Below are positions 3,541-42,365 of a stretch of 64,000 bases of DNA, in pieces (the stretch's first letter is position 1; every line of letters begins with the position of its first letter). The position numbers and the translations under genes are program-made. The notes below the pieces were generated by a model. It was given only the letters and a program-made list of their open reading frames with translations, was not told the origin of the DNA and did no database searches. Source of the stretch: Clostridiaceae bacterium BRH_c20a (lineage in GTDB: Bacteria > Bacillota > Peptococcia > Peptococcales > BICA1-8); assembly GCA_000961765.1 (NCBI GenBank), contig LADT01000086.1, positions 1 through 64,000 on the forward strand. The letters run 5' to 3'.

Positions 3541-4203
3541 TTAATTATCAACAAAACCTTCACGCCAGGCAAAGGTGGCTAACTGGACACGATTCTGGAG
3601 GTGAAGTTTCTCCATGATATTGCAGAGGTGATTCTTTACAGTATTTTCAGTAATAGCCAACTCAAAGGCAATTTCCTTATTAGTTATTCCCTGAGCTACT
3701 TGAATTAAAACCTCACCCTCCCTTTCAGTTAGATTAAATTTTTGATAATCTACTTCCTTCTGCTTTTTAGACAAGTTTGCAAATTCTTTTAAAATTTTAC
3801 TTGCTATCGTCTTTGATAAAGCAGCTTCACCCTTTAATAAACCTTTTATTTGTTTTATTAAATCATCTGGTTCCATACTCTTTAATAGATAACCTTGGGC
3901 TCCGTTTTTAATTGATTTAAATAAATTATCATCATCCTCAGATATTGTCAGCATAACTACTTTACACTGTGGGAGCTCTTCTTTAATAGCTCTTACAGCA
4001 TCTACTCCTGTCATTTCAGGCATTTCCACATCCATAATAATAATATCGGGTTTAAGTTCTCTAGCTTTTTCCACCCCTTCTCTACCATTACTTGCTTCAC
4101 CAATTATTTCTAATTCCTTTAGCTCATTTAATAAACTGGCTATCCCTTTACGGAATAAAGCGTGATCATCGACTAAAAGTACTTTAAACTTCAATAATTC
4201 CAT
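3541..4203 (-). CDS. NarL/FixJ-family response regulator
   Basis: Receiver domain plus LuxR-type DNA-binding domain, about 220 aa. The receiver shows the acidic pair in VLLVDDHALFRKG, the phosphoacceptor Asp in PDIIIMDVEMP, the switch Thr/Ser in VVMLTISED and the conserved Lys in GYLLKS. The C-terminal HTH reads LTEREGEVLIQVAQGITNKE and continues to NTVKNHLCNI. It is encoded just downstream of, and surely phosphorylated by, the histidine kinase at 4241-5557 (13 bp or more apart). The first in-frame start is a TTG at 4227; ATG at 4203 begins the conserved domain, but its AAAGGGGG site is unusually close, so the start is uncertain by a few residues. Targets are unknown; the nearest unassigned candidates are the YeiH-like genes to the right. 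Confidence 0.9.
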   Translation of the reverse strand: MELLKFKVLLVDDHALFRKGIASLLNELKELEIIGEASNGREGVEKARELKPDIIIMDVEMPEMTGVDAVRAIKEELPQCKVVMLTISEDDDNLFKSIKNGAQGYLLKSMEPDDLIKQIKGLLKGEAALSKTIASKILKEFANLSKKQKEVDYQKFNLTEREGEVLIQVAQGITNKEIAFELAITENTVKNHLCNIMEKLHLQNRVQLATFAWREGFVDN

Positions 4204-4240
4204 GCCCCCTTTAAATAAGCTATACAATTAATTTACTATC

Positions 4241-5557
4241 TTAATTATTATTTTCATATTGACTTTTCATCGGCAAAGTCAATTCCACAAGTGTTCCTCT
4301 GGGCTCACTAGGAAGTACTTTTAAATTGCCACCGATAATTTGGGCTCTTTCCTTCATTATTGTTAATCCAAAATGTTCATTAGTGCCCTTATTTAAAGTA
4401 GTTAAATCAATACCTTTTCCATTATCAGTAATTTTAATTTTTAGCTCATTTTCATTTTTGGTTAAAATAATATTTGTTTTAGTAGCTCGGGCATGCTTTC
4501 TGATATTTGTTAAAGCTTCTTGAATAATTCTAATTAATTGAACCTTGACATCAGTAGGTAGAATAAGTGCTTCTTGACAATCATAGAAAAAATCGGCTTC
4601 GATATGATTTATATAACCAAAGTTTTTTAGATAGTCTTCCATCCATACTCTAAAACAACTAGTTTCTTCCTTTGGAGGTGTTTTTAAATCGAAAATGTTC
4701 TGACGCACTTCATTAACAGCCTCTTGAGTAACCTGTCTAATTTCAACTATGTCTTTGACAATAGAATCATGGTTATCATGCTTTTCTAAATTCTTTTGAA
4801 TATTATATGCCTTGATATTTAAATAGACTAAAGCTTGTGCTAGGCCATCATGCATTTCTCTGGCTAATCTGTATCTTTCCTCTAGAGTAGCATAATTTTG
4901 AATTGCCTTTTCAAATTCTTTTTTTTCAGAGATATCCCTTAAAACAAGCTTTACCAACGGCCTTTCATCACCTACAGCAGGTATGTAGGAATAACTGGCA
5001 CCAACTTTAATTTTTTTGCCATTTTTACAAACTAAACACATTTCTACATAGGGAACTGAAATATGTTTTTCCAAGCAAGTCTTACCCCAGCACTCCCTAT
5101 GTCCACAGTCTACATTCATGCAACCTTCGGGATTTTGAGAATTCCAACAGGCCTCTGTACTTTTTAAGCACTGGTTCATTTCTTCACAAGTAATTTTCCG
5201 GATTACCTCTTTCGCTTTCCAACCTGTTAGTTTTTCTACTGCCGGGTTAATATCAAGGATCTGACAATTCTCTCCTAAGACTATAATTCCATCAGATGTA
5301 TGATGAAAAATAGTTTTCAGTTTTTGCTGCTCTAAAAAAAGCGAATTATGAATAGACCGAATTTTTTTAAACAAATAAGCCGAAAAAACAAGTCCAAAAA
5401 AACCAACTGAACATATTAGTATGACACTATTAATGATTGGCGTAAATATATTGCCTAGAATTTGAAACCGAAACACTTCATAAATGCCTACGCCTAGGAC
5501 TGGAATAACAAAAGCCATCCATTTTATATTGATATAATAATCTTCTAAATTTTTCAT
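4241..5557 (-). CDS. NarX/DegS-type sensor histidine kinase with Cys-rich PAS domain
   Basis: 438 aa. Two N-terminal membrane helices (about 12-30 and 40-63) have almost no extracytoplasmic loop, so sensing is probably cytoplasmic. A PAS domain (about 78-215) follows, then HisKA_3 with the phospho-acceptor in REMHDGLAQALV (His236), and HATPase with N and G boxes (QEALTNIRKHA, DNGKGID). The PAS domain carries an insertion with Cys at 124, 130, 137, 146, 151, 156, 161, 174 and 177, far more than chance. That suggests an Fe-S cluster or metal and hence an oxygen/redox or metal signal, by analogy to Fe-S kinases such as NreB. The ligand is inference. Cotranscribed with the response regulator. Start ATG; a weak site AGTTGGTTCAGT precedes it. 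Confidence 0.9.
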   Translation of the reverse strand: MKNLEDYYINIKWMAFVIPVLGVGIYEVFRFQILGNIFTPIINSVILICSVGFFGLVFSAYLFKKIRSIHNSLFLEQQKLKTIFHHTSDGIIVLGENCQILDINPAVEKLTGWKAKEVIRKITCEEMNQCLKSTEACWNSQNPEGCMNVDCGHRECWGKTCLEKHISVPYVEMCLVCKNGKKIKVGASYSYIPAVGDERPLVKLVLRDISEKKEFEKAIQNYATLEERYRLAREMHDGLAQALVYLNIKAYNIQKNLEKHDNHDSIVKDIVEIRQVTQEAVNEVRQNIFDLKTPPKEETSCFRVWMEDYLKNFGYINHIEADFFYDCQEALILPTDVKVQLIRIIQEALTNIRKHARATKTNIILTKNENELKIKITDNGKGIDLTTLNKGTNEHFGLTIMKERAQIIGGNLKVLPSEPRGTLVELTLPMKSQYENNN

Positions 5558-6054
5558 ACTGAACCAACTCCATCTTAGGTAAGAAGTACTATGGATTTTT
5601 ATAGTTAATTTGTACTATTCTACACAAGGTTTTCGAAAACCTACATAATTAGCAAAAGACTTTGTATAATTATTTTTTATGATTCAAATAATTCAAACTA
5701 ATATATAACCGATAATTTTACACTATACTTAAAATTAGTTTCGTCACACATCCCTCCCCTTTCCCCAAATAGCTGGCATTTTATACAGATGTCTTTAAAA
5801 GACTAAGTCTTTTTTATAATTTATGCTATTTATTTTTAGTTTATTTATATAAATAGTAAAATAGTGGGGTTTAATTAAAAAGATTTTATATCTATAATTA
5901 TATATAGCTAAAGATATTTATAAATAATTTCTATTAAAGACTTTATTAGGTGCTTTTACTTGTAATTATTTTCATATGACAAAAAAAAGGGGGGGTGTGG
6001 TGATTAGCTGTAACCCAACAACAAAGCTTTACAAATTTTCAGGAGGTGTAATTT
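5558..6054. promoter_or_regulatory. Long AT-rich divergent intergenic region
   Basis: 497 bp between the kinase gene (leftward) and the first YeiH-like gene (rightward), so it must carry both promoters. It is very AT-rich with several TATAAT-like words (for example tataattatatatagc near 5895). A run of Gs at 5990-5997 precedes the AGGAGGTG ribosome site at 6042. I see no ORF and no riboswitch I recognise. Confidence 0.4.
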
Positions 6055-7398
6055 ATGTCTGATGTAGTAACAAGTAGTAAGTTTAAATGGTCTGATTTAG
6101 TGAGTAAAGAAGATTGGTGGGCAATTTGGCTTGGATTTATTATTTTATTATTATCTACAATAAGTAAACTAACAGGTGCTTTTCCTTTTAAAACCGCCAA
6201 ACCTGTTACCTGGGGAAATGAAAAAGTCCCTTCAATATTTGGGTCTTTTGACGGAATTTTACCAGGTTTAATTCTTACATTTGTTGTCTTAGCTGTTCTG
6301 TTTACTATAGGAAAGAAATTTATGGGCGCCGATGTAGGAAAATTCATAACTGGTTTCCCAGTAGTATTTATTTTAGCAACTCTTGCTTATTTATTTGCTG
6401 CTAATGCCGGCATCAAAAACTATTTAGGATACGCCTTTTGGGCCTTAGGTATTGGATTATTGGTTAGCAATACCGTAAGAACCCCTGAATGGCTAAAGCC
6501 AGCCGTTAATACTGAATATTATATTAAAACAGGTTTAGTTATTTTTGGAGCCGAAGTATTATTCTCCAATGTAGTTAAATTTGGTTTGTATGGCTTAGGC
6601 ATTGCTTGGTTTGTAACTCCAATTGTTGTTATCTTTATGTGGTATTATGGTACAAGAATACTCAAAATGACCAGTAAACCTATGGTCATTGTTATCGCAA
6701 CTGCCACTTCAGTATGTGGGGTTTCGGCAGCTATTGCGGCCGCTGCAGCTTCAAAAGCTAAAAAAGAGGATTTAACCTTTGCCATTGGTTTAACCCTTAT
6801 TTTCACCGTAATAATGATGGTCACTATGCCTTTCATTGTTAAAGCTGTGGGCATGAGCGATATGGTCGGTGGAGCTTGGATGGGTGGTACTATCGACGCT
6901 ACTGGTGCTGTTGTGTTGGCTGGTGAAACTTTAGGACCACTAGCAGGTCAGGTTGCTGCCTTAGTAAAAATGATTCAAAACGTACTTATCGGTGTTATCG
7001 CTTTTGCAATTGCAGTGTTCTTTGCTACCAAGGTTGACAAAGCGGAAGGTGGACCCGAAGTAGGCGCTGATGAAATTTGGCACCGTTTCCCCAAATTTAT
7101 CCTTGGTTTTATTGCAGCTTCCGTTATTTTCTCCTTTATTTATGAACCAGGTTTAGGAACAGAAACAACAAAGGGTGTCTTGAGCCTTAGTAAAGGTTTT
7201 AGAGGCTGGTGTTTCTGTTTAGCCTTTACATGTATCGGTCTGGAATCCAACTTTAAAGACATGGCTGAGCTGGTTCAAGGCGGTAAGCCATTATGGTTAT
7301 ACATTGTTGGTCAATCCTTTAACCTAGTACTAACTTTATTAGTTGCTTGGTTATTACTAAGCGGAATTATTTTCCCAATACCAACATTGACAGTTTAA
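6055..7398 (+). CDS. YeiH-type putative sulfate exporter family protein, copy 1
   Basis: A 447-aa polytopic membrane protein of the Cons_hypoth698/UPF0324 (YeiH, putative sulfate exporter) family. About ten hydrophobic segments are visible. Family landmarks are EYYIKTGLVIFGAEVLFSN, the polar helix start ATSVCGVSAAIAAAAASKAK, GGAWMGGTIDATGAVVLAG, VAALVKMIQNVLIG and WHRFPKFILGF. In classical YeiH the equivalent of GTIDATG is nearer GTxHExxQ, so this is a distinct subgroup with a longer N-terminus (SKFKWSDL, EDWWAIWLGF). Transport is inferred from the family; the substrate is unproven (sulfite, sulfate or another anion). ATG with AGGAGGTG 7 nt upstream. It has its own terminator and two downstream paralogues. 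Regulation by the LysR genes at 11.4-14.4 kb is a guess from proximity. Confidence 0.85.
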   Translation: MSDVVTSSKFKWSDLVSKEDWWAIWLGFIILLLSTISKLTGAFPFKTAKPVTWGNEKVPSIFGSFDGILPGLILTFVVLAVLFTIGKKFMGADVGKFITGFPVVFILATLAYLFAANAGIKNYLGYAFWALGIGLLVSNTVRTPEWLKPAVNTEYYIKTGLVIFGAEVLFSNVVKFGLYGLGIAWFVTPIVVIFMWYYGTRILKMTSKPMVIVIATATSVCGVSAAIAAAAASKAKKEDLTFAIGLTLIFTVIMMVTMPFIVKAVGMSDMVGGAWMGGTIDATGAVVLAGETLGPLAGQVAALVKMIQNVLIGVIAFAIAVFFATKVDKAEGGPEVGADEIWHRFPKFILGFIAASVIFSFIYEPGLGTETTKGVLSLSKGFRGWCFCLAFTCIGLESNFKDMAELVQGGKPLWLYIVGQSFNLVLTLLVAWLLLSGIIFPIPTLTV

Positions 7399-7426
7399 TA
7401 TCAATATAAAATAAATAGATATTCTT

Positions 7427-7456
7427 AAGCCAAGCATTTATTGCTTGGCTTTTCTT
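7427..7456 (+). terminator. Rho-independent terminator after copy 1
   Basis: Hairpin AAGCCAAGCA-loop-TGCTTGGCTT followed by TTCTT, 28 bp after the stop codon. It separates transporter copy 1 from copy 2. The rest of the 323-bp gap (7457-7721) is AT-rich, has no ORF, and ends in the TAGGAGGT ribosome site. Confidence 0.85.
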
Positions 7457-7721
7457 ATGGTGTTATAAACAAATTTAATCATTTCGCTATAAATACTTTT
7501 GTACTAAATTTATATATAGGAAAATTTAGTTCCGTCGTAGATATTTTTTGTCAAAAAATAGTAGGAATGGTGGATTATCAGTTCATAATATTTTTTTATA
7601 TAATATAGTCGTAATAATCTATGCTCGAAATAAATCATTTATATGGGTGGTGATTGATGACTAAATATTCACTATATTTTTTCTACCGTCTTTATCTAAA
7701 ATTTATAGGAGGTATTATTTT

Positions 7722-9065
7722 ATGTCTGATATCGTAACTGCTAGTAAGTTTAAATGGTCAGATTTAGCTAAGAAAGAAGATTGGTGGGCAATTTGGCTTG
7801 GATTTATTGTATTAACTATAGCAGCAATAAGTAAATTTACTGGTGCTTTCGCCTTTAAGGCTGCCAAAATAGCTACTTGGGGAAATGAAAAGGCTCCTAG
7901 TATTATGGATGCTTTCAATGGTCAGTTAGGCTTATTAATTTTCAGTTTAATTGTACTAGGTGCATTATTCGCTCTCGGCCTTAAAGTAATGGGTGAAGAT
8001 GTGAAAGGCTTCTTAATAGCTTTTCCAGTTGTTTTTATCTTAGCAACAATTGCTTATGTTTTTGGTGCTCAAGCAACTATGAAAAAATATATTGAGTACG
8101 CCTTCTGGGCTCTAGTCGTCGGGCTTGCGGTAAGCAATACCGTAAAAACTCCTGATTGGCTGAAGCCGGCAGTAAAGACCGAATACTATATTAAAACAGG
8201 TCTTGTACTAATGGGTGCAGAAGTACTCTTCTCCAATGTTGTTAAATTTGGTTTCTATGGTCTAGGAATTGCATGGTTAGTTACTCCAATTGTTATTATC
8301 TTTATGTGGTATTACGGTACAAAAGTCCTTAAAATGACCAGCAAGCCTATGGTTATCGTTATCGCAACAGCTACTTCGGTTTGCGGGGTTTCTGCAGCTA
8401 TTGCTGCTGCTGCTGCTTCTAAAGCTAAAAAGGAAGACTTAACCTTTGCCATCGGCTTAACCCTTATCTTCACCGTTTTGATGATGGTCTTCATGCCTAT
8501 GATCATAAAAGCTATTGGTATGAATGAACTGATCGGCGGAGCCTGGATGGGTGGTACAATTGATTCCACTGGTGCAGTTGTACTAGCCGGTGAAACCTTA
8601 GGACCATTAGCAGGTCAAGTTTCTGCCTTGGTTAAAATGATTCAAAACGTTCTTATTGGTCTTATCGCTTTTGCCATTGCCGTATTTTTTGCAACTAAAG
8701 TTGAAAAGGATGCTGATGGACCCTCTGTGGGCGCAGATGAAATCTGGCACCGTTTCCCAAAATTCATCCTTGGTTTTATTGTAGGATCGATAATCTTTTC
8801 TTTCCTCGTTGAACCTTCCATAGGTACAAAAGATACTAAAGCTATTCTTTCCTTATCAGGCAGTTGGAAAGCATGGTGTTTCTGCATGGCCTTCGTATCA
8901 ATCGGTCTTGAGTCTAACTTTAAGGATATGGCTGAGCTTGTTCAAGGCGGTAAGCCACTTTGGTTGTATGTTGTGGGACAAAGCTTTAACTTAGTACTTA
9001 CTTTATTAGTAGCCTGGTTGTTACTAAGTGGCGTTATCTTCCCAATTCCAGTATTAACAGTGTAA
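7722..9065 (+). CDS. YeiH-type putative sulfate exporter family protein, copy 2
   Basis: 447 aa, same length and architecture as copy 1 and very similar throughout, with the core VIVIATATSVCGVSAAIAAA unchanged. It differs most in the first periplasmic stretch (about 55-80) and near 370-385 (VEPSIGTKDTKAILSLSG), as expected for duplicates under different selection. Landmark GGTIDSTGAVVLAG replaces GGTIDATG of copy 1. ATG with AGGAGGT 8 nt upstream. It has its own upstream region and terminator, so it can be expressed independently. Function is inferred from the family only. Confidence 0.85.
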   Translation: MSDIVTASKFKWSDLAKKEDWWAIWLGFIVLTIAAISKFTGAFAFKAAKIATWGNEKAPSIMDAFNGQLGLLIFSLIVLGALFALGLKVMGEDVKGFLIAFPVVFILATIAYVFGAQATMKKYIEYAFWALVVGLAVSNTVKTPDWLKPAVKTEYYIKTGLVLMGAEVLFSNVVKFGFYGLGIAWLVTPIVIIFMWYYGTKVLKMTSKPMVIVIATATSVCGVSAAIAAAAASKAKKEDLTFAIGLTLIFTVLMMVFMPMIIKAIGMNELIGGAWMGGTIDSTGAVVLAGETLGPLAGQVSALVKMIQNVLIGLIAFAIAVFFATKVEKDADGPSVGADEIWHRFPKFILGFIVGSIIFSFLVEPSIGTKDTKAILSLSGSWKAWCFCMAFVSIGLESNFKDMAELVQGGKPLWLYVVGQSFNLVLTLLVAWLLLSGVIFPIPVLTV

Positions 9066-9075
9066 TAGAGATATC

Positions 9076-9114
9076 AAAAGGGCACCATTCCTTAAGGAAT
9101 GGTGCCCTTTTTCA
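9076..9114 (+). terminator. Rho-independent terminator after copy 2
   Basis: Perfect hairpin AAAGGGCACCATTCC-TTAA-GGAATGGTGCCCTTT followed by TT, 10 bp past the stop codon. Confidence 0.9.
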
Positions 9115-9125
9115 TTTAGACACTA

Positions 9126-9163
9126 ATTATCAATCAATAAACAATTGTTTATTGATTGATAAT
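9126..9163. repeat. 38-bp perfect AT-rich palindrome
   Basis: A perfect inverted repeat with arm ATTATCAATCAATAAACAA, centred at 9144/9145. It sits just after the copy 2 terminator and 285 bp upstream of copy 3. It has no T-tract and no loop, so it is not a typical terminator. A dimeric regulator site or a cruciform is possible. The remaining gap to 9447 is AT-rich without genes. Confidence 0.6.
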
Positions 9164-9447
9164 CGATCTTTAAATTTTATTATTTTTATATTTAGTCTAA
9201 TTATATTTGCTTCAATTAATATAACTTTTTAGTTTAATAGATGCCTTTTTCTAAATTCATAAAATTCGTTAATGCATTTAATAAAAATAGTATTAAAGAA
9301 TGATATTAAGATTTTTTATGATAATTTATAATTAAATTATCACACTACACCACAGACACCACACTGATTTTCTAAGAAGGAGGGATCAAAAAATTACTTT
9401 AGTAAAATAATTAGTATAGTTTTTTAAAATTATTGGAGGTGTATTTA

Positions 9448-10785
9448 ATGTCAGATATCGTAACAGCTAGTAAATTTAAATGGTCTGATTTAATGAAAAA
9501 AGAAGACTGGTGGTCAATATGGCTTGGACTTATAGTAATTATAATCGCTGCTATCAGTAAAGCGACTGGAGCTTTTAGTTTTAAGGCGGCAAAAATTGCC
9601 ACTTGGGGAAATGATAAGATACCTAGTTTTTTAGGTTCATTTGATATCCCAAGCTTATTAATATCAATGGTAGTTTTAGCAGCTCTTTTCGCTATCGGTT
9701 TAAAATTCATGGGTGAAGATGTGCCAAAGTTTTTAATAGCTTTTCCTGTCATTTTTATTTTAGCAACAATAGCTTATGTTTTCGGTGCTCAAGCTACTAT
9801 GAAGAAATATGCAGAATATGCATTTTGGGCGTTAGTTGTTGGTCTTGTAATAAGCAATACTGTTAAAACTCCCGATTGGTTAAAACCTGCCGTTAAAACT
9901 GAGTACTACATTAAAACCGGTCTGGTTTTAATGGGTGGTGAGGTTTTATTCTCTAATGTGGTGAAATTTGGGGTTTATGGTTTAGGCATTGCTTGGTTTG
10001 TTACCCCGGTTGTAATTATTTTTATGTGGCATTATGGCACCAAAATACTTAAAATGACCAGTAAGCCTATGGTTATTGTTATCGCTACAGCTACTTCCGT
10101 TTGTGGTGTTTCCGCCGCTATCGCTGCAGCAGCTGCTTCAAAGGCAAAAAAGGATGACTTAACCTTTGCCATCGGCTTATCATTAATTTTTACAGTATTA
10201 ATGATGGTTACTATGCCTATCTTTATTAAGGCTATTGGAATGGATCCTATGGTCGGCGGTGCATGGATCGGTGGTACAGTAGACTCTACAGGTGCCGTTG
10301 TATTAGCCGGGGAAGCCTTAGGCCCTCTAGGCGGTCAGGTTGCTGCTTTAGTTAAAATGATTCAAAACGTATTGATAGGTGTTATCGCTTTTGCCATTGC
10401 CGTATTTTTTGCGACAAAAGTAGAAAAAGATGTTGATGGACCATCCGTAGGAGCTAGTGAAATCTGGCACCGCTTCCCAAAATTCATCCTAGGCTTTATT
10501 GGTGCATCACTAATTTTCTCCTTTATTGTAGAACCTGCAATAGGTGTTAAAGAAACTAAAGATCTATTAGGTTACACTGGTGGCTGGAAGGGCTGGTGCT
10601 TCTGTATGGCCTTCATATGTATCGGGCTTGAGTCTAATTTCAAGGAAATGGCTGAGCTTGTACAAGGCGGTAAACCACTATGGTTATATGTTGTGGGTCA
10701 AAGCTTTAACTTAGTACTTACTTTATTGGTTGCTTGGTTACTACTCAGTGGAGTCATCTTCCCAATACCAGTATTAGCTGTTTAA
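9448..10785 (+). CDS. YeiH-type putative sulfate exporter family protein, copy 3
   Basis: About 445 aa and closest to copy 2 (shared MSDIVTASKFKWSDL and AQATMKKY). It carries the same core helices with VKFGVYGLGIAWFVTP and GGTVDSTGAVVLAGEALGPL. I start it at ATG 9448, which has TTGGAGGTG 7 nt upstream; a longer reading from TTG 9433 would begin inside the ribosome site. Own promoter region and terminator. Three intact, separately controlled copies suggest different conditions or substrates rather than simple dosage. Confidence 0.85.
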   Translation: MSDIVTASKFKWSDLMKKEDWWSIWLGLIVIIIAAISKATGAFSFKAAKIATWGNDKIPSFLGSFDIPSLLISMVVLAALFAIGLKFMGEDVPKFLIAFPVIFILATIAYVFGAQATMKKYAEYAFWALVVGLVISNTVKTPDWLKPAVKTEYYIKTGLVLMGGEVLFSNVVKFGVYGLGIAWFVTPVVIIFMWHYGTKILKMTSKPMVIVIATATSVCGVSAAIAAAAASKAKKDDLTFAIGLSLIFTVLMMVTMPIFIKAIGMDPMVGGAWIGGTVDSTGAVVLAGEALGPLGGQVAALVKMIQNVLIGVIAFAIAVFFATKVEKDVDGPSVGASEIWHRFPKFILGFIGASLIFSFIVEPAIGVKETKDLLGYTGGWKGWCFCMAFICIGLESNFKEMAELVQGGKPLWLYVVGQSFNLVLTLLVAWLLLSGVIFPIPVLAV

Positions 10786-10794
10786 TCAATTTTT

Positions 10795-10827
10795 TAAAGG
10801 GTTCATTCTTTCGGAATGGACCTTTTT
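10795..10827 (+). terminator. Rho-independent terminator after copy 3
   Basis: Hairpin AAAGGGTTCATTC-TTTC-GGAATGGACCTTT followed by TTT. It ends copy 3 and separates it from the small membrane gene. Confidence 0.85.
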
Positions 10828-11030: not shown

Positions 11031-11327
11031 ATGAGTGGTGGAAAATTTCTTACGACCCGCAAACTAAATATACTAAGTATCCTAGTCCTAACTTCAGTAA
11101 TAATTGCTGCAATATACATCATGCGCAATAACTTAGGACTAATTGAAGGTCTAGACTTTGGAGCTGGTCAGTATTATTATACAGATATCCCTGGTTGGGA
11201 CAAAGTATTCTTTGGCGAGAAGAGTATTACTTTAGGTACTAACCATCCCATCCTCTTCTTTAGTGCTTTTTTCCTTTGGGGATACGCCTGTTTTAAATTT
11301 TTATCTTGGATAGAAACTAAGAAATAA
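11031..11327 (+). CDS. Small two-helix membrane protein, unknown function
   Basis: 98 aa. Two predicted membrane helices (about 14-32 and 72-90) flank a roughly 35-residue outside loop rich in aromatic residues (GAGQYYYTDIPGWDKVFFGE). I do not recognise a family. ATG preceded by TTGAGGTG at 8 nt. It lies 245 bp after the third transporter, in the same direction, with a terminator between them, and has its own good terminator. It may be an accessory of the neighbouring transporters, but only position supports that. The lysine-rich C-terminus (ETKK) is cytoplasmic if the N-terminus (KFLTTRK) is. Confidence 0.6.
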   Translation: MSGGKFLTTRKLNILSILVLTSVIIAAIYIMRNNLGLIEGLDFGAGQYYYTDIPGWDKVFFGEKSITLGTNHPILFFSAFFLWGYACFKFLSWIETKK

Positions 11328-11332
11328 TAAAT

Positions 11333-11364
11333 AAGAAGAAGCACATTAATGTGCTTCTTCTTTT
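11333..11364 (+). terminator. Rho-independent terminator
   Basis: Hairpin AAGAAGAAGCACAT-TA-ATGTGCTTCTTCTT followed by TTATTTA repeats up to about 11385. It can serve the small gene on the left. The arms also suit the leftward lysR transcript. Confidence 0.85.
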
Positions 11365-11429: not shown

Positions 11430-12341
11430 CTACCTTTCTAATAAATCTAGTGCCTCACTAGATTTAATAAAACGCAAAAACTCATCAGCTGCCTGGGTAC
11501 GGAACTTTTTCTTATGGTGGATTACATTGAAGTCCCTTTCAAAAATATCCTCCTTAAAACTAAGTTGAGCAAGCTGCCCCAGCTTAACTTTTTCTTTTGC
11601 AGCCCATTTAGAAATAATGGACATCCCTAAACCGCTTTCTACTGCTGCTTTGATGGCAGAAGTACTCCCCAATTCCATAATAACTTTTAAATTATTTGCT
11701 GAAAAACCCGTCTTTTTTAAATGCTGCTCAGTCTCAATTCTTGTCCCTGAGCCCTTTTCCCTAGAAACAAAGGGAAATTTGTCTAATTCAAATACGGATA
11801 TTTTATCCTGTTGAGCCCAAGGGTGATCATGGGAAACTACTAGAACCATCTGGTCTTTTAAAAACAGCTCTTTTTCTATATCCTTAACAGTTACCGGTCC
11901 TTCCACAAGTCCTATATCCAATGATGTATCGTGAATCTTAGTTTCAATATCCTCTGAATTACCAACCTCCAGGGAAAGCTCTACCTCAGGATATTTCTTC
12001 TTAAATGCACCTAAAAGATAGGGAACAATATATTCCCCTATGGTTGTACTGGCTCCTATTAATAGCCGCCCTTTTATAGTCCCAGTCAATTCCTGCATTT
12101 CTCGCTCTAGCTCACTTTGTAATTTAGTCATATTATTTGCATATCCAAGCAATAAATGTCCTGCTTGAGTTAAAGAAATATTTCTGCTTACCCTATCAAA
12201 AAGTCTTGTCCCATAATATTCTTCAAGCATTTGAATTTGAAAGCTAATAGCTGGCTGTGTAAGAAATAATGCCTTTGCTGCCTTAGAAAAACTTTTTTTA
12301 TCAACAACTGTTAAAAAAACTCTAATACTATCGTTTAGCAA
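11430..12341 (-). CDS. LysR-family transcriptional regulator 1 (CysL/CbbR-like)
   Basis: About 303 aa. The N-terminal winged HTH reads SFSKAAKALFLTQPAISFQI with SRNISLTQAG. The effector domain begins near KGRLLIGASTTIGEYIVPYL. It acts as a cytoplasmic dimer or tetramer sensing a small ligand. I start it at TTG 12341 with AAAGGTGG 9 nt upstream; the longer reading adds 21 residues (IIIIWKIYFKIYYERW) that no LysR protein has. It is clearly paralogous to the regulator at 13496-14413. In many bacteria this LysR subtype controls sulfur, carbon or anion genes, so the three YeiH-like genes are candidate targets, which is inference. Confidence 0.9.
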   Translation of the reverse strand: MLNDSIRVFLTVVDKKSFSKAAKALFLTQPAISFQIQMLEEYYGTRLFDRVSRNISLTQAGHLLLGYANNMTKLQSELEREMQELTGTIKGRLLIGASTTIGEYIVPYLLGAFKKKYPEVELSLEVGNSEDIETKIHDTSLDIGLVEGPVTVKDIEKELFLKDQMVLVVSHDHPWAQQDKISVFELDKFPFVSREKGSGTRIETEQHLKKTGFSANNLKVIMELGSTSAIKAAVESGLGMSIISKWAAKEKVKLGQLAQLSFKEDIFERDFNVIHHKKKFRTQAADEFLRFIKSSEALDLLER

Positions 12342-12557
12342 ACCCGTAGTCCACCTTTCATAATATATTTTAAAGTATATTTTCCATATTATAATTATAT
12401 ACAAATTATAATTTTAAAAAAGTAAAAGAAATATGTTAAATAATATATGTTTATTTTGTCCCAATCTTATCACCTCAATTTACAATATTCAACAATTTTT
12501 TTATAATTCCCTTCTTTTTATATAAAGAAAGTATCGAAAAGGAAAAGTGCTAAAAAG

Positions 12558-12584
12558 AATAAATCGCCTTTAAGGCGATTTATT
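12558..12584 (-). terminator. Terminator overlapping the XRE gene stop
   Basis: Stem AATAAATCGCCT / AGGCGATTTATT. On the minus strand it runs on into CTTTTTAG. The TAA stop of the XRE gene lies inside the hairpin. Confidence 0.8.
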
Positions 12585-13479
12585 GGTTGTTTGATTTTGC
12601 TTTTTTTAAAACCCATCGGGAGTTTTCAATAACAAATTTTTTATCATCTTCAGAAAGATTAGCCATGATCTCTAAAAGCTCTTTAGTCTGGTCATTTAAA
12701 GCTTCTTCTTCTATATTTAAGCGGTTGTGAGTTCTTAGTACATTTATTAAAGCAACTACTAAAGAGAAATCCTGGGGTTGAAGATCTTGAGTTATTTCAA
12801 TAAATTTATCGTAAGAATTATGTGAACCACTTGAGTTCGCCTGTCTCAAGGCCATTTCCTCAGTTTCTGTCATAAGAAAATAATAAATACCCACTCCAAA
12901 AACATTTGCAATTTCTTGTAAAGTATCTAGTGCCGGTTTTACCCTTCCAGTTTCAATTTGCCCGATGAGACTTAAGGATACCCCAATTTTTTCTGCCAAC
13001 TGAACCTGGGTAAGATTCTGCCTTTCCCTTAATCTTCTTATCTTATCACCCAAGGTAAAGCTTTCCTCAAGTTGGAAAAAATATCTAGTGGGTATTTCCA
13101 AAACTACAGCCAGTTTTTCTAAAGTTTTTAGGGAAGCACAGGTTTTCCCCCGCTCAATTTCACTAATATGTGTATAAGAAACACCGGATCTTTTTCCCAA
13201 TTGAACTAAGGTTATCTTCTTTTCTTCCCTGATGTGTCTAAGTTGGATGCCAATATTATCATAAATACTCTTTTTATTGTCTAATAATAGAGTTTCCTGG
13301 GGAACCTGTAAATAATCGGATATCTTATTTAAGATTTCAGGAGTAAAATCTTTGTGTCCTAAATAAACCTCATCTATGATTGCAACGGGAATGTCAGTAT
13401 TCTCGGCTAATTGAGCTAATGTTATCTTCTTTTCCCTTAAAATATTACTTAAATTATTATTTGTAAGCACGGTAAACAC
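12580..13479 (-). CDS. XRE-family regulator with three HTH domains
   Basis: 299 aa with three successive Cro/cI-type HTH units: about 8-60 (divergent; TLAQLAENTDIPVAIIDEV), 75-130 (TLVQLGKRSGVSYTHISEIE) and 140-200 (TQVQLAEKIGVSLSLIGQIE). A roughly 100-residue helical tail (EDDKKFVIENSRWVLKKAK) follows. Tandem XRE units imply recognition of an extended or multi-part operator. The gene lies 16 bp after lysR 2 on the same strand with a terminator behind it, so the two regulators are cotranscribed. No ligand domain or protease motif is visible. Start GTG or nearby; ATG is not obvious, and the first-HTH boundary argues for a start near 13479. Confidence 0.8.
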   Translation of the reverse strand: MFTVLTNNNLSNILREKKITLAQLAENTDIPVAIIDEVYLGHKDFTPEILNKISDYLQVPQETLLLDNKKSIYDNIGIQLRHIREEKKITLVQLGKRSGVSYTHISEIERGKTCASLKTLEKLAVVLEIPTRYFFQLEESFTLGDKIRRLRERQNLTQVQLAEKIGVSLSLIGQIETGRVKPALDTLQEIANVFGVGIYYFLMTETEEMALRQANSSGSHNSYDKFIEITQDLQPQDFSLVVALINVLRTHNRLNIEEEALNDQTKELLEIMANLSEDDKKFVIENSRWVLKKAKSNNQ

Positions 13480-13495
13480 CCTACCTTATTTAAAA

Positions 13496-14413
13496 CTATG
13501 ATTTTAGCATCTCATGCACTTCTTCACTACGTAAAAAATTCAAGAATTCATATGCAGCCTTTGTTCTGAATTTCTTTTCATGATAAATCACAGTAAATTG
13601 GCGTTCAAATTTAGTTTCATTTATAGCTATAGTTGCCAACTTATTTAGTTTTACTGAATCTTTAGCGGCCCATTCAGAAATAATCGATACACCTAATCCA
13701 CTAGCTACTGCTGCCTTTATAGCAGTAGTACTACCTAGTTCCATTATAATATTCAGATTATTTAGGTCAAAACCCACCTTTCTAAAAGCATTCTCCATTA
13801 TATGCCTAGTTCCAGAACCTTTCTCCCTGGTGATAAAGGGATATTGATTCAACTCAAAAACAGAGATTCTTTTATTATTTACCCAAGGGTGATCTATCTG
13901 AGTGATTAATACTAATTCATCATCAAGGAACTTTTCTGTATTCAAATCTTTTCCATTGACAGGACCTTCTACTAATGCCACATCTAAAGTTGTATTAATT
14001 ATACTTGTCTCTATATCCTCAGTATTGGCCACCACTAAGCTTACGTCAACTTCTGGAAACTGCTTTTTAAATCTCCCTACCAAGTAAGGTAAAACATATT
14101 CTCCTATGGTTGTGCTAGCACCTAGCATTAATCTACCCTTAATTGTACCGGTAAGTTCCTGCATCTCCTTTTCAAGATTTGCTTGAAGAATACTCAAGTC
14201 CTGAGCATACCTCAATAAGAGTTCACCAGCAGCTGTTAATGTAATATTACGATTGACTCTGTCAAATAAGACTGTGCCATAATATTGTTCTAACATCTGT
14301 ATCTGAAAGCTCACTGCAGGTTGGGTCAAAAACAAGGATTTAGCAGCCTTTGAAAAGTTTCTTTTTTCGGCTACCGCCAGAAAGACCCTAATGCTATCAT
14401 TTACCAATATCAA
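13496..14413 (-). CDS. LysR-family transcriptional regulator 2
   Basis: 305 aa, strongly similar to the regulator at 11430-12341 (both begin NDSIRVFL and share GTIKGRL and GASTTIGEY). HTH: NFSKAAKSLFLTQPAVSFQI. Effector-domain words are EGPVNG, REKGSGTR and GLGVSIISEWAAK. TTG start at 14413 with GGGGGG just upstream; a second TTG at 14407 is equally possible. First gene of a two-gene unit with the triple-HTH protein. Two near-duplicate LysR genes next to triplicated transporter genes suggest that regulators and transporters were amplified together. Confidence 0.9.
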   Translation of the reverse strand: MILVNDSIRVFLAVAEKRNFSKAAKSLFLTQPAVSFQIQMLEQYYGTVLFDRVNRNITLTAAGELLLRYAQDLSILQANLEKEMQELTGTIKGRLMLGASTTIGEYVLPYLVGRFKKQFPEVDVSLVVANTEDIETSIINTTLDVALVEGPVNGKDLNTEKFLDDELVLITQIDHPWVNNKRISVFELNQYPFITREKGSGTRHIMENAFRKVGFDLNNLNIIMELGSTTAIKAAVASGLGVSIISEWAAKDSVKLNKLATIAINETKFERQFTVIYHEKKFRTKAAYEFLNFLRSEEVHEMLKS

Positions 14414-38342: not shown

Positions 38343-38386
38343 TAAAAAAACAGAGCAACAAGAAAAGAATCGCCTTGTTACTCTGT
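38343..38386 (-). terminator. Riboswitch-controlled terminator before gcvT
   Basis: On the minus strand CAGAGTAACAAG-loop-CTTGTTGCTCTG is followed by TTTTTTT; one U-G wobble in the stem. The first arm begins with the same CAGAG that closes helix P1 of the second aptamer. Confidence 0.9.
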
Positions 38387-38387
38387 C

Positions 38388-38533
38388 CTTAAACCTGAGA
38401 GATTTTACCCCTTTGGTGCTCATAAAGAGCTCTCCAGAGACCCATCAGAATGCGGTACTGGTACCTGAGAGTTTCCAATACCTTGGCATAAAGTATTGTT
38501 GCTCCTTCGGTGTCCACTTAAGGACTCTCCCAC
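38388..38533 (-). promoter_or_regulatory. Tandem glycine riboswitch
   Basis: Read on the minus strand. Aptamer 1 (about 38533-38452) has GGGAGAGTCC, CACCGAAGGAGCAA and AAACTCTCAGGTACC. Aptamer 2 (about 38445-38382) has CTCTGGAGAGC, GCACCAAAGGGGTAAA and ATCTCTCAGGTTTAAGGAC. These are the conserved glycine-riboswitch blocks in the usual tandem order. P1 of aptamer 2 pairs CUCUG with CAGAG, and CAGAG is also the start of the terminator stem, so glycine binding should block termination and turn the gcv operon on. Confidence 0.95.
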
Positions 38534-38619
38534 ATTCCTCATTTAGTTTATTCTGTTTTTAAAAAAAGAAATATTTTCTAATGATTGTGATAATTATATT
38601 CGCCATTAACCCAAAAATT

Positions 38620-42070: not shown

Positions 42071-42300
42071 AGCAAAAAACCCCCCATCCCCTAAGGGACG
42101 AGAGTTGTTTCCCGCGGTACCACCCTGATAACAGTATAATAATTCTGCCTCTTTGGAGTCAGATAACGATGACCAGCCGAATAGAATTACTAAATTTCAA
42201 ACTATTAACTCCTGGATGATTTTCCCCTAAGTCGAGTATCCGGCTTCCACCTCCTCCGAATTCGCTGTAACCCAAGTAATCAAGGTACTTTTCCATTCAT
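42071..42300 (-). promoter_or_regulatory. T-box leader of ileS
   Basis: Read on the minus strand. Stem I region starts near 42300 with the AGUA word (AAAAGTACC). A candidate specifier AUC (Ile) sits at 42220-42218 in GGGGAAAATCATCC, in the expected GAA...A setting. The T-box core AGGGTGGTACCGCGGG is at about 42126-42111. The terminator CTCTCGTCCC-TTA-GGGGATGGGG with six Ts follows at 42108-42072. Uncharged tRNA-Ile should favour the antiterminator. Between it and ileS (41907-42070) lies short-repeat sequence with GACTATAG words. Confidence 0.93.
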
Positions 42301-42365
42301 TGTATTTCCTTTATATTCTTTCTATCAAATAGTAAAACAGATAAATTAAAATGTCAACTCATCTG

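Follow-up and report, generated by a model that had tools for sequence, protein, structure and literature searches.

The closest characterised relatives of the transporters described here are the YeiH proteins of Salmonella and E. coli (TIGR00698), with which they have in common the PF03601 family, the CPA/AT clan, a probable link to sulfite and a YeiE-type LysR regulator. In Salmonella, YeiE activates yeiH, and YeiH confers sulfite resistance (PMC12880088); residue Glu145 of YeiE discriminates sulfite from sulfate (PMC12423496). The copies of the present array differ from YeiH by two extra predicted N-terminal helices, by the motif GGT[IV]DxTGAV and by the presence of a small partner protein. 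A comparable arrangement is, by its description, that of Hden_0834/Hden_0835 in Hyphomicrobium denitrificans, in which a YeiH-annotated sulfite exporter adjoins a LysR of YeiE type that carries the Glu discriminating sulfite; in that case, however, the host is a sulfur oxidiser (PMC12423496). In D. vulgaris Hildenborough, the gene pair DVU0543-DVU0544 encodes a PSE transporter and, downstream of it, a small membrane protein, as here, and likewise diverges from the genes of a sensor kinase and a response regulator, but it differs by the universal stress proteins in the operon and by a molybdate phenotype (PMC10102598). Since the likeness is one of layout alone, membership of DVU0543/DVU0544 in the subtype described below should be taken as a lead. 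Finally, the PSE_2 topology class is defined, in the accessible part of its description, by a pair of additional helices at the N-terminus and by a transmembrane helix with a re-entrant helix on either side (PMC8396727). Within that part, PSE_2 is the name of a topology, while the partner gene, the link to dsr genes and the division by motif are features of this locus. Evidence on the biochemistry of sulfite uptake is scarce (PMC6302107).

The window, that is, the whole stretch of 64,000 nucleotides of Clostridiaceae bacterium BRH_c20a that was analysed, contains three such transporters, A, B and C. Downstream of C, the gene order is a 98-aa ORF followed by the minus-strand genes of LysR1, a helix-turn-helix regulator and LysR2, with pyrR marking the edge. 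The features are the following:

3541-4227, minus strand: NarL-type response regulator, transcribed divergently from the array (Response_reg and GerE domains; 85% identical in L005)
4241-5557, minus strand: sensor histidine kinase containing a PAS domain and, at Cys124-177, a cysteine-rich segment (PAS, HisKA_3, HATPase_c)
6055-7398, plus strand: transporter A, 447 aa, predicted PSE_2 type, GTIDATG (PF03601 match with alignment)
about 7427-7451, plus strand: terminator-like hairpin 3' of A (z -3.3)
7722-9065, plus strand: transporter B, 447 aa, GTIDSTG (PF03601 match; AF2 model)
9076-9111, plus strand: terminator-like hairpin 3' of B (z -7.0; 18-nt arms with perfect complementarity)
9448-10785, plus strand: transporter C, 445 aa from ATG, GTVDSTG (PF03601 match)
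10796-10826, plus strand: terminator-like hairpin 3' of C (z -4.0)
11031-11327, plus strand: predicted small two-helix membrane protein, 98 aa, with a YYYTDI loop (co-occurrence, adjacency, two-helix model)
11333-11362, detected on both strands: bidirectional terminator hairpin separating the partner gene from LysR1 (z -8.0)
11430-12404, minus strand: LysR1, YeiE-like (NF040786, 279 bits against a cut-off of 250)
12580-13479, minus strand: helix-turn-helix regulator between the LysR genes (HTH_3 matches; same place in G003)
13496-14413, minus strand: LysR2, YeiE-like (NF040786, 267 bits against a cut-off of 250)

The first-pass annotation of this DNA had described three intact tandem paralogues of about 447 aa with separate ribosome sites and terminators, and both observations hold. 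The three ORFs (447, 447 and 445 aa) are arranged head to tail, are all intact and encode proteins that are 77-84% identical (A-B 78%, A-C 77%, B-C 84%); a TTG at 9433, upstream of the ATG of copy C, is an alternative start that would give 450 aa. Strong GGAGG-type ribosome sites lie ahead of all three starts, the intergenic gaps measure 323 bp (A/B) and 382 bp (B/C), and a strong hairpin follows each stop, none of these hairpins being matched by any of 200 shuffles (0/200). As far as the sequence indicates, A, B and C are separate transcription units, and their independent control, as had been proposed, is plausible from the gaps and terminators. An Rfam search found no RNA in the transporter array, and its upstream regions contained local palindromes only, with no shared regulatory repeats of sufficient length. 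Downstream of the terminator of B and ahead of copy C (9126-9163) there is a perfect 38-bp A+T-rich palindrome, ATTATCAATCAATAAACAATTGTTTATTGATTGATAAT, the 34-bp core of which is a single site genome-wide with up to 3 mismatches allowed. Upstream of the sensor kinase, a block at about 5587-5645 is near-identical in G003, a genome from another genus of the same family, and holds in the window the palindrome GGTTTTCGAAAACC, a possible regulator site. In the kinase itself, most cysteines of the cysteine-rich segment are retained in L005.

All three copies are above the Pfam gathering cut-off of PF03601 (Cons_hypoth698 / PSE family; 166, 163 and 156 bits for A, B and C against 24.5) and below the curated cut-off of TIGR00698 for YeiH (71.7, 71.7 and 75.2 bits against 232.6). 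The VH[ED]xAQV motif of classical proteins such as E. coli YeiH is replaced by GGT[IV]DxTGAV. The departure from classical YeiH noticed earlier is therefore borne out, and the motif then given as GTIDxTG was nearly right, since A and B conform to it, whereas C has a valine in place of the isoleucine. Copy A is 27% identical to a classical-type copy located elsewhere in the genome. The GGT[IV]D motif was found in every protein of the Bacillota and long-form sets (41/41) and in none of the 39 distant-set proteins, of which 37 carry SEFADAAG instead. GGT[IV]D, SEFADAAG and VHExAQV may thus mark three substrate-site subtypes inside PF03601.

The AF2 model of copy B (pLDDT 83.7) displays extra N-terminal helices at 19-40 and 69-90 and broken helices at 208-233 and 269-291 around a helix at 237-265, the helix breaks coinciding with SVCGVSA and GGT[IV]DxTGAV. 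The same N-terminal helices and re-entrant core characterise the PSE_2 class in the available portion of its description (PMC8396727), and the copies are accordingly predicted to have PSE_2 topology, with two added N-terminal helices and a core made of a re-entrant segment, a helix and a second re-entrant segment. The N-termini that had been called unusual do appear to carry two extra helices, but this topology had already been described, in relatives from several phyla, in the part of that source at hand (PMC8396727). A sequence search for structural relatives of the transporter matched 0 PDB chains, and a fold search of the PDB gave weak CitS/NhaP matches alone (best E about 0.01, low TM-scores), which agree with the CPA/AT clan and fall short of proof. 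The excess of about 130 aa in the Desulfobacterota forms was considered as a possible fused partner; this idea was rejected, as the extra residues form an Ala/Lys-rich insert separating helices one and two, and the Desulfobacterota loci have a partner gene of their own.

This partner, the 98-aa ORF, is the most informative neighbour of the array and had been overlooked in the first-pass annotation, where the kinase/regulator pair (3541-5557) was also unmentioned. The protein has 0 matches in Pfam or NCBIfam models, and its own model consists of two helices at low confidence (pLDDT 65). It is present in 8 of 60 related genomes, all of them among the nine that carry the transporter subtype (Fisher p 3.5e-9, kinship ignored), and in the ninth the transporter is truncated by the contig end. 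In the Bacillota loci examined, the partner gene is located at most 141 bp from the transporter, on the same strand except in G007; the window is exceptional in its spacing, with the partner 246 bp after C, past the terminator of C. In addition, 25 long-form loci, mostly of sulfate reducers, encode directly 3' of the transporter a small membrane protein with a Y-rich YT[DE] loop. The Bacillota and long-form partners match in profile comparison with a probability of 92% (pairwise E 6e-7, from shallow profiles) and weakly in cross-search (E 0.013), so that the Bacillota and long-form/Desulfobacterota partners are likely homologous. A KEDWW N-terminal motif was excluded as evidence because the locus search had been seeded with it. 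Taken at the sequence level, the 98-aa protein appears to be a conserved partner of this transporter subtype, belonging to no named family. Other small neighbours were observed. In G003, another small partner gene (L115:2211-2498) lies in the interval from LysR1 to the helix-turn-helix regulator, a place where the window carries nothing corresponding. An uncharacterised protein of about 200 aa is encoded near the long-form transporter and partner in L016 (10158-10757) and 15 other loci, and the one scanned had 0 Pfam matches. In 14 loci of the distant PF03601 set (L077:2086-2355 and 13 others), the neighbour is a different one, a small Cys-rich protein with a LSSAYGSVRGEAGIC-like motif, for which the one scanned also had 0 Pfam matches.

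The two duplicated LysR regulators reported to follow the array are indeed there, 65% identical and separated by the helix-turn-helix regulator; the true start of LysR1 is probably near 12341, as judged from its orthologue. Both are below the YeiE equivalog model NF040889 (209 and 203 bits against a cut-off of 480). Their best PDB matches include YeiE structures, and the counterpart of YeiE Glu145, the one contact compared, is conserved in the VEGP of LysR1 and LysR2. By these comparisons, LysR1 and LysR2 resemble the sulfite sensor YeiE.

The genome encodes dsrA (552.5 bits against a cut-off of 392.85) and dsrB (501 against 341.5) and, with both above cut-off, is classed as that of a dissimilatory sulfite reducer. 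It also contains dsrC and a DsrN-like gene, the dsr genes being on another contig than the array. In this genome, rated 100% complete, sat (TIGR00339) had 0 matches, and the best aprA match scored 407.7 against the TIGR02061 cut-off of 641.75, while the same protein passes NF005331 (657 against 557); by the rule of sat plus TIGR02061 aprA, the organism would not be counted among the sulfate reducers. This AprA-like protein has as neighbours an HdrA-like protein and a DASS-type transporter (L126:7778-12616). A TRAP transporter (DctP, DctQ, DctM) adjoins dsrC (L109:5941-8815) and represents a rival candidate for sulfite/sulfonate uptake. In relatives, the transporter follows dsrM, dsrAB, dsrC and dsrN, with dsrN 0.9 kb away (L006), is preceded by dsrKJOP and dsrN and then by the small partner (L009), or has dsrKJOP at 4-7 kb (L008). 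The dsrA gene is above cut-off in 15 of the 20 genomes that carry either this subtype or the distant one and is not matched in some carriers (G002, G016 and the genomes of L014, L028 and L041). The co-occurrence of dsr and transporter has a p of 0.004 over 60 genomes, where relatedness confounds it, and of 0.48 within the order, and it therefore fails as stand-alone proof; likewise, within the order, carriers and non-carriers were not distinguished by the absence of sat. The anion flux that had been called unknown is not wholly so: in three relatives the transporter is linked to dsr genes, and the LysRs are YeiE-like, both of which indicate sulfite.

Our tentative interpretation, held at a little short of an even chance, is that the locus of this dissimilatory sulfite reducer encodes a sulfite permease system that responds to sulfite, with regulatory paralogues. 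It is suggested by the dsrAB, dsrC and DsrN-like genes of a genome with sat unmatched, by the transporter lying beside dsr genes in the three relatives (L006, L009 and L008), by the partner in 8 of 9 carriers with a probable homologue downstream of the transporter in 25 long-form loci, by LysRs that pass NF040786, match YeiE structures and keep Glu145, and by an AF2 core with two broken helices flanking one transmembrane helix, as in the family according to the accessible part of PMC8396727. Three anciently duplicated PSE_2-type transporters would cooperate with one shared small two-helix partner (11031-11327), which may act as an accessory subunit. Transport would proceed via the two re-entrant helices, with SVCGVSA and GGT[IV]DxTGAV as their tips, and the two YeiE-like LysRs would sense sulfite and, together with the cysteine-rich two-component system, choose the copy and the timing. 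Uptake of external sulfite for cytoplasmic DsrAB is slightly favoured over export because the genome has dsrAB and no recognised sat. We infer the substrate, the direction, the subunit role of the partner and the regulation from these features. Several observations argue against this interpretation: the dsr genes are on another contig, their association with the transporter has a p of 0.48 within the order, and some carriers have no dsrA match; the subtype is also carried by sulfate reducers, which make sulfite intracellularly; the characterised relative YeiH serves sulfite resistance, usually read as export; a single partner gene, in its own transcription unit, serves three transporters; and the Bacillota and Desulfobacterota partners are joined by weak profile similarity. 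A broader proposal, which we regard as doubtful, is that dissimilatory sulfite and sulfate reducers of different phyla share an undescribed two-part sulfite permease, made up of the GGT[IV]D transporter and, as an obligatory subunit, the small YYYT[DE] protein; sulfite respirers would keep several versions of it under different regulation. The transporter-partner pair, dsr-linked in relatives and found across sulfate- and sulfite-reducing phyla, would be a concrete candidate for the way in which sulfite crosses the membrane; with it, an as yet unnamed family of membrane proteins would gain a function, and the family loosely called "putative sulfate exporter" would be divided by core motif.

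The same regulators could instead serve detoxification, the YeiE-like LysRs inducing one or more of the copies at high sulfite so that excess sulfite is expelled by YeiH-like exporters. Membership of the copies in the Pfam family of YeiH, the YeiE-like LysRs of the locus, the sulfite resistance conferred by Salmonella YeiH (PMC12880088) and the 526-fold induction of YeiH by thiosulfate in the sulfite-excreting Hyphomicrobium (PMC12423496) are all consistent with export. However, the genome already has a classical-type copy elsewhere, copy A is only 27% identical to it, the core motif is different, and the dsr-adjacent placing in relatives suits supply at least as well as detoxification; we thus consider this explanation unlikely. 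Slightly more unlikely, in our view, is that the array transports a different oxyanion or sulfur anion (sulfate, thiosulfate, molybdate or a sulfonate) and that the sulfite signals merely mirror shared sulfur regulation. The PSE cluster of D. vulgaris, with its small membrane protein, two-component pair and molybdate phenotypes (PMC10102598), agrees with such a substrate, as do the similar layout around this transporter subtype in L153, L154 and L156 and its presence in sulfate reducers, but the YeiE glutamate kept in the LysRs favours sulfite over sulfate, and sulfate is unlikely as the main substrate because sat is unmatched in the genome.

The three copies of the array are old, since their third codon positions agree at only 51-56% despite the 77-84% protein identity. 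Recent gene amplification is ruled out by this divergence and by the same arrangement in another genus. In G003, the kinase/regulator pair is followed by an A-like copy and a B-like start up to a contig break, beyond which come a C-like end (90% to C), a small gene, LysR1, the second small gene, the helix-turn-helix regulator and LysR2; the contig ends overlap by exactly 99 bases, and owing to the break there may be either two or three copies there. In the tree, B pairs with the B-like piece of G003 (96/89), the C-like piece groups with B and C (95/71), and A is unplaced. Upstream of the A-like copy in G003, two short matches (E 3e-4 and 0.03) are likely the remains of a decayed extra copy, and tandem transporter pairs arose independently in Desulfovibrionales (G113, G111). 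From these cases, the copy number is fluid, with diverged copies long retained. The triplication does not support the strong need, in the sense of dosage, that had been suggested: it is not recent, and G003 keeps an A-like copy together with B-like and C-like pieces. That the paralogues are redundant, with one substrate and overlapping control, and persist through drift in an unstable tandem array, the triplication having no special function, would suit the fluid copy number, the likely decayed copy and the independent pairs in Desulfovibrionales, but is very improbable given that the long-separated copies are all intact and that diverged B-like and C-like forms are retained in another genus.

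Elsewhere in the window, glycine-cleavage-like genes are preceded by a tandem glycine riboswitch (38381-38542), and a large tRNA-synthetase-like ORF by a T-box leader (42091-42309).
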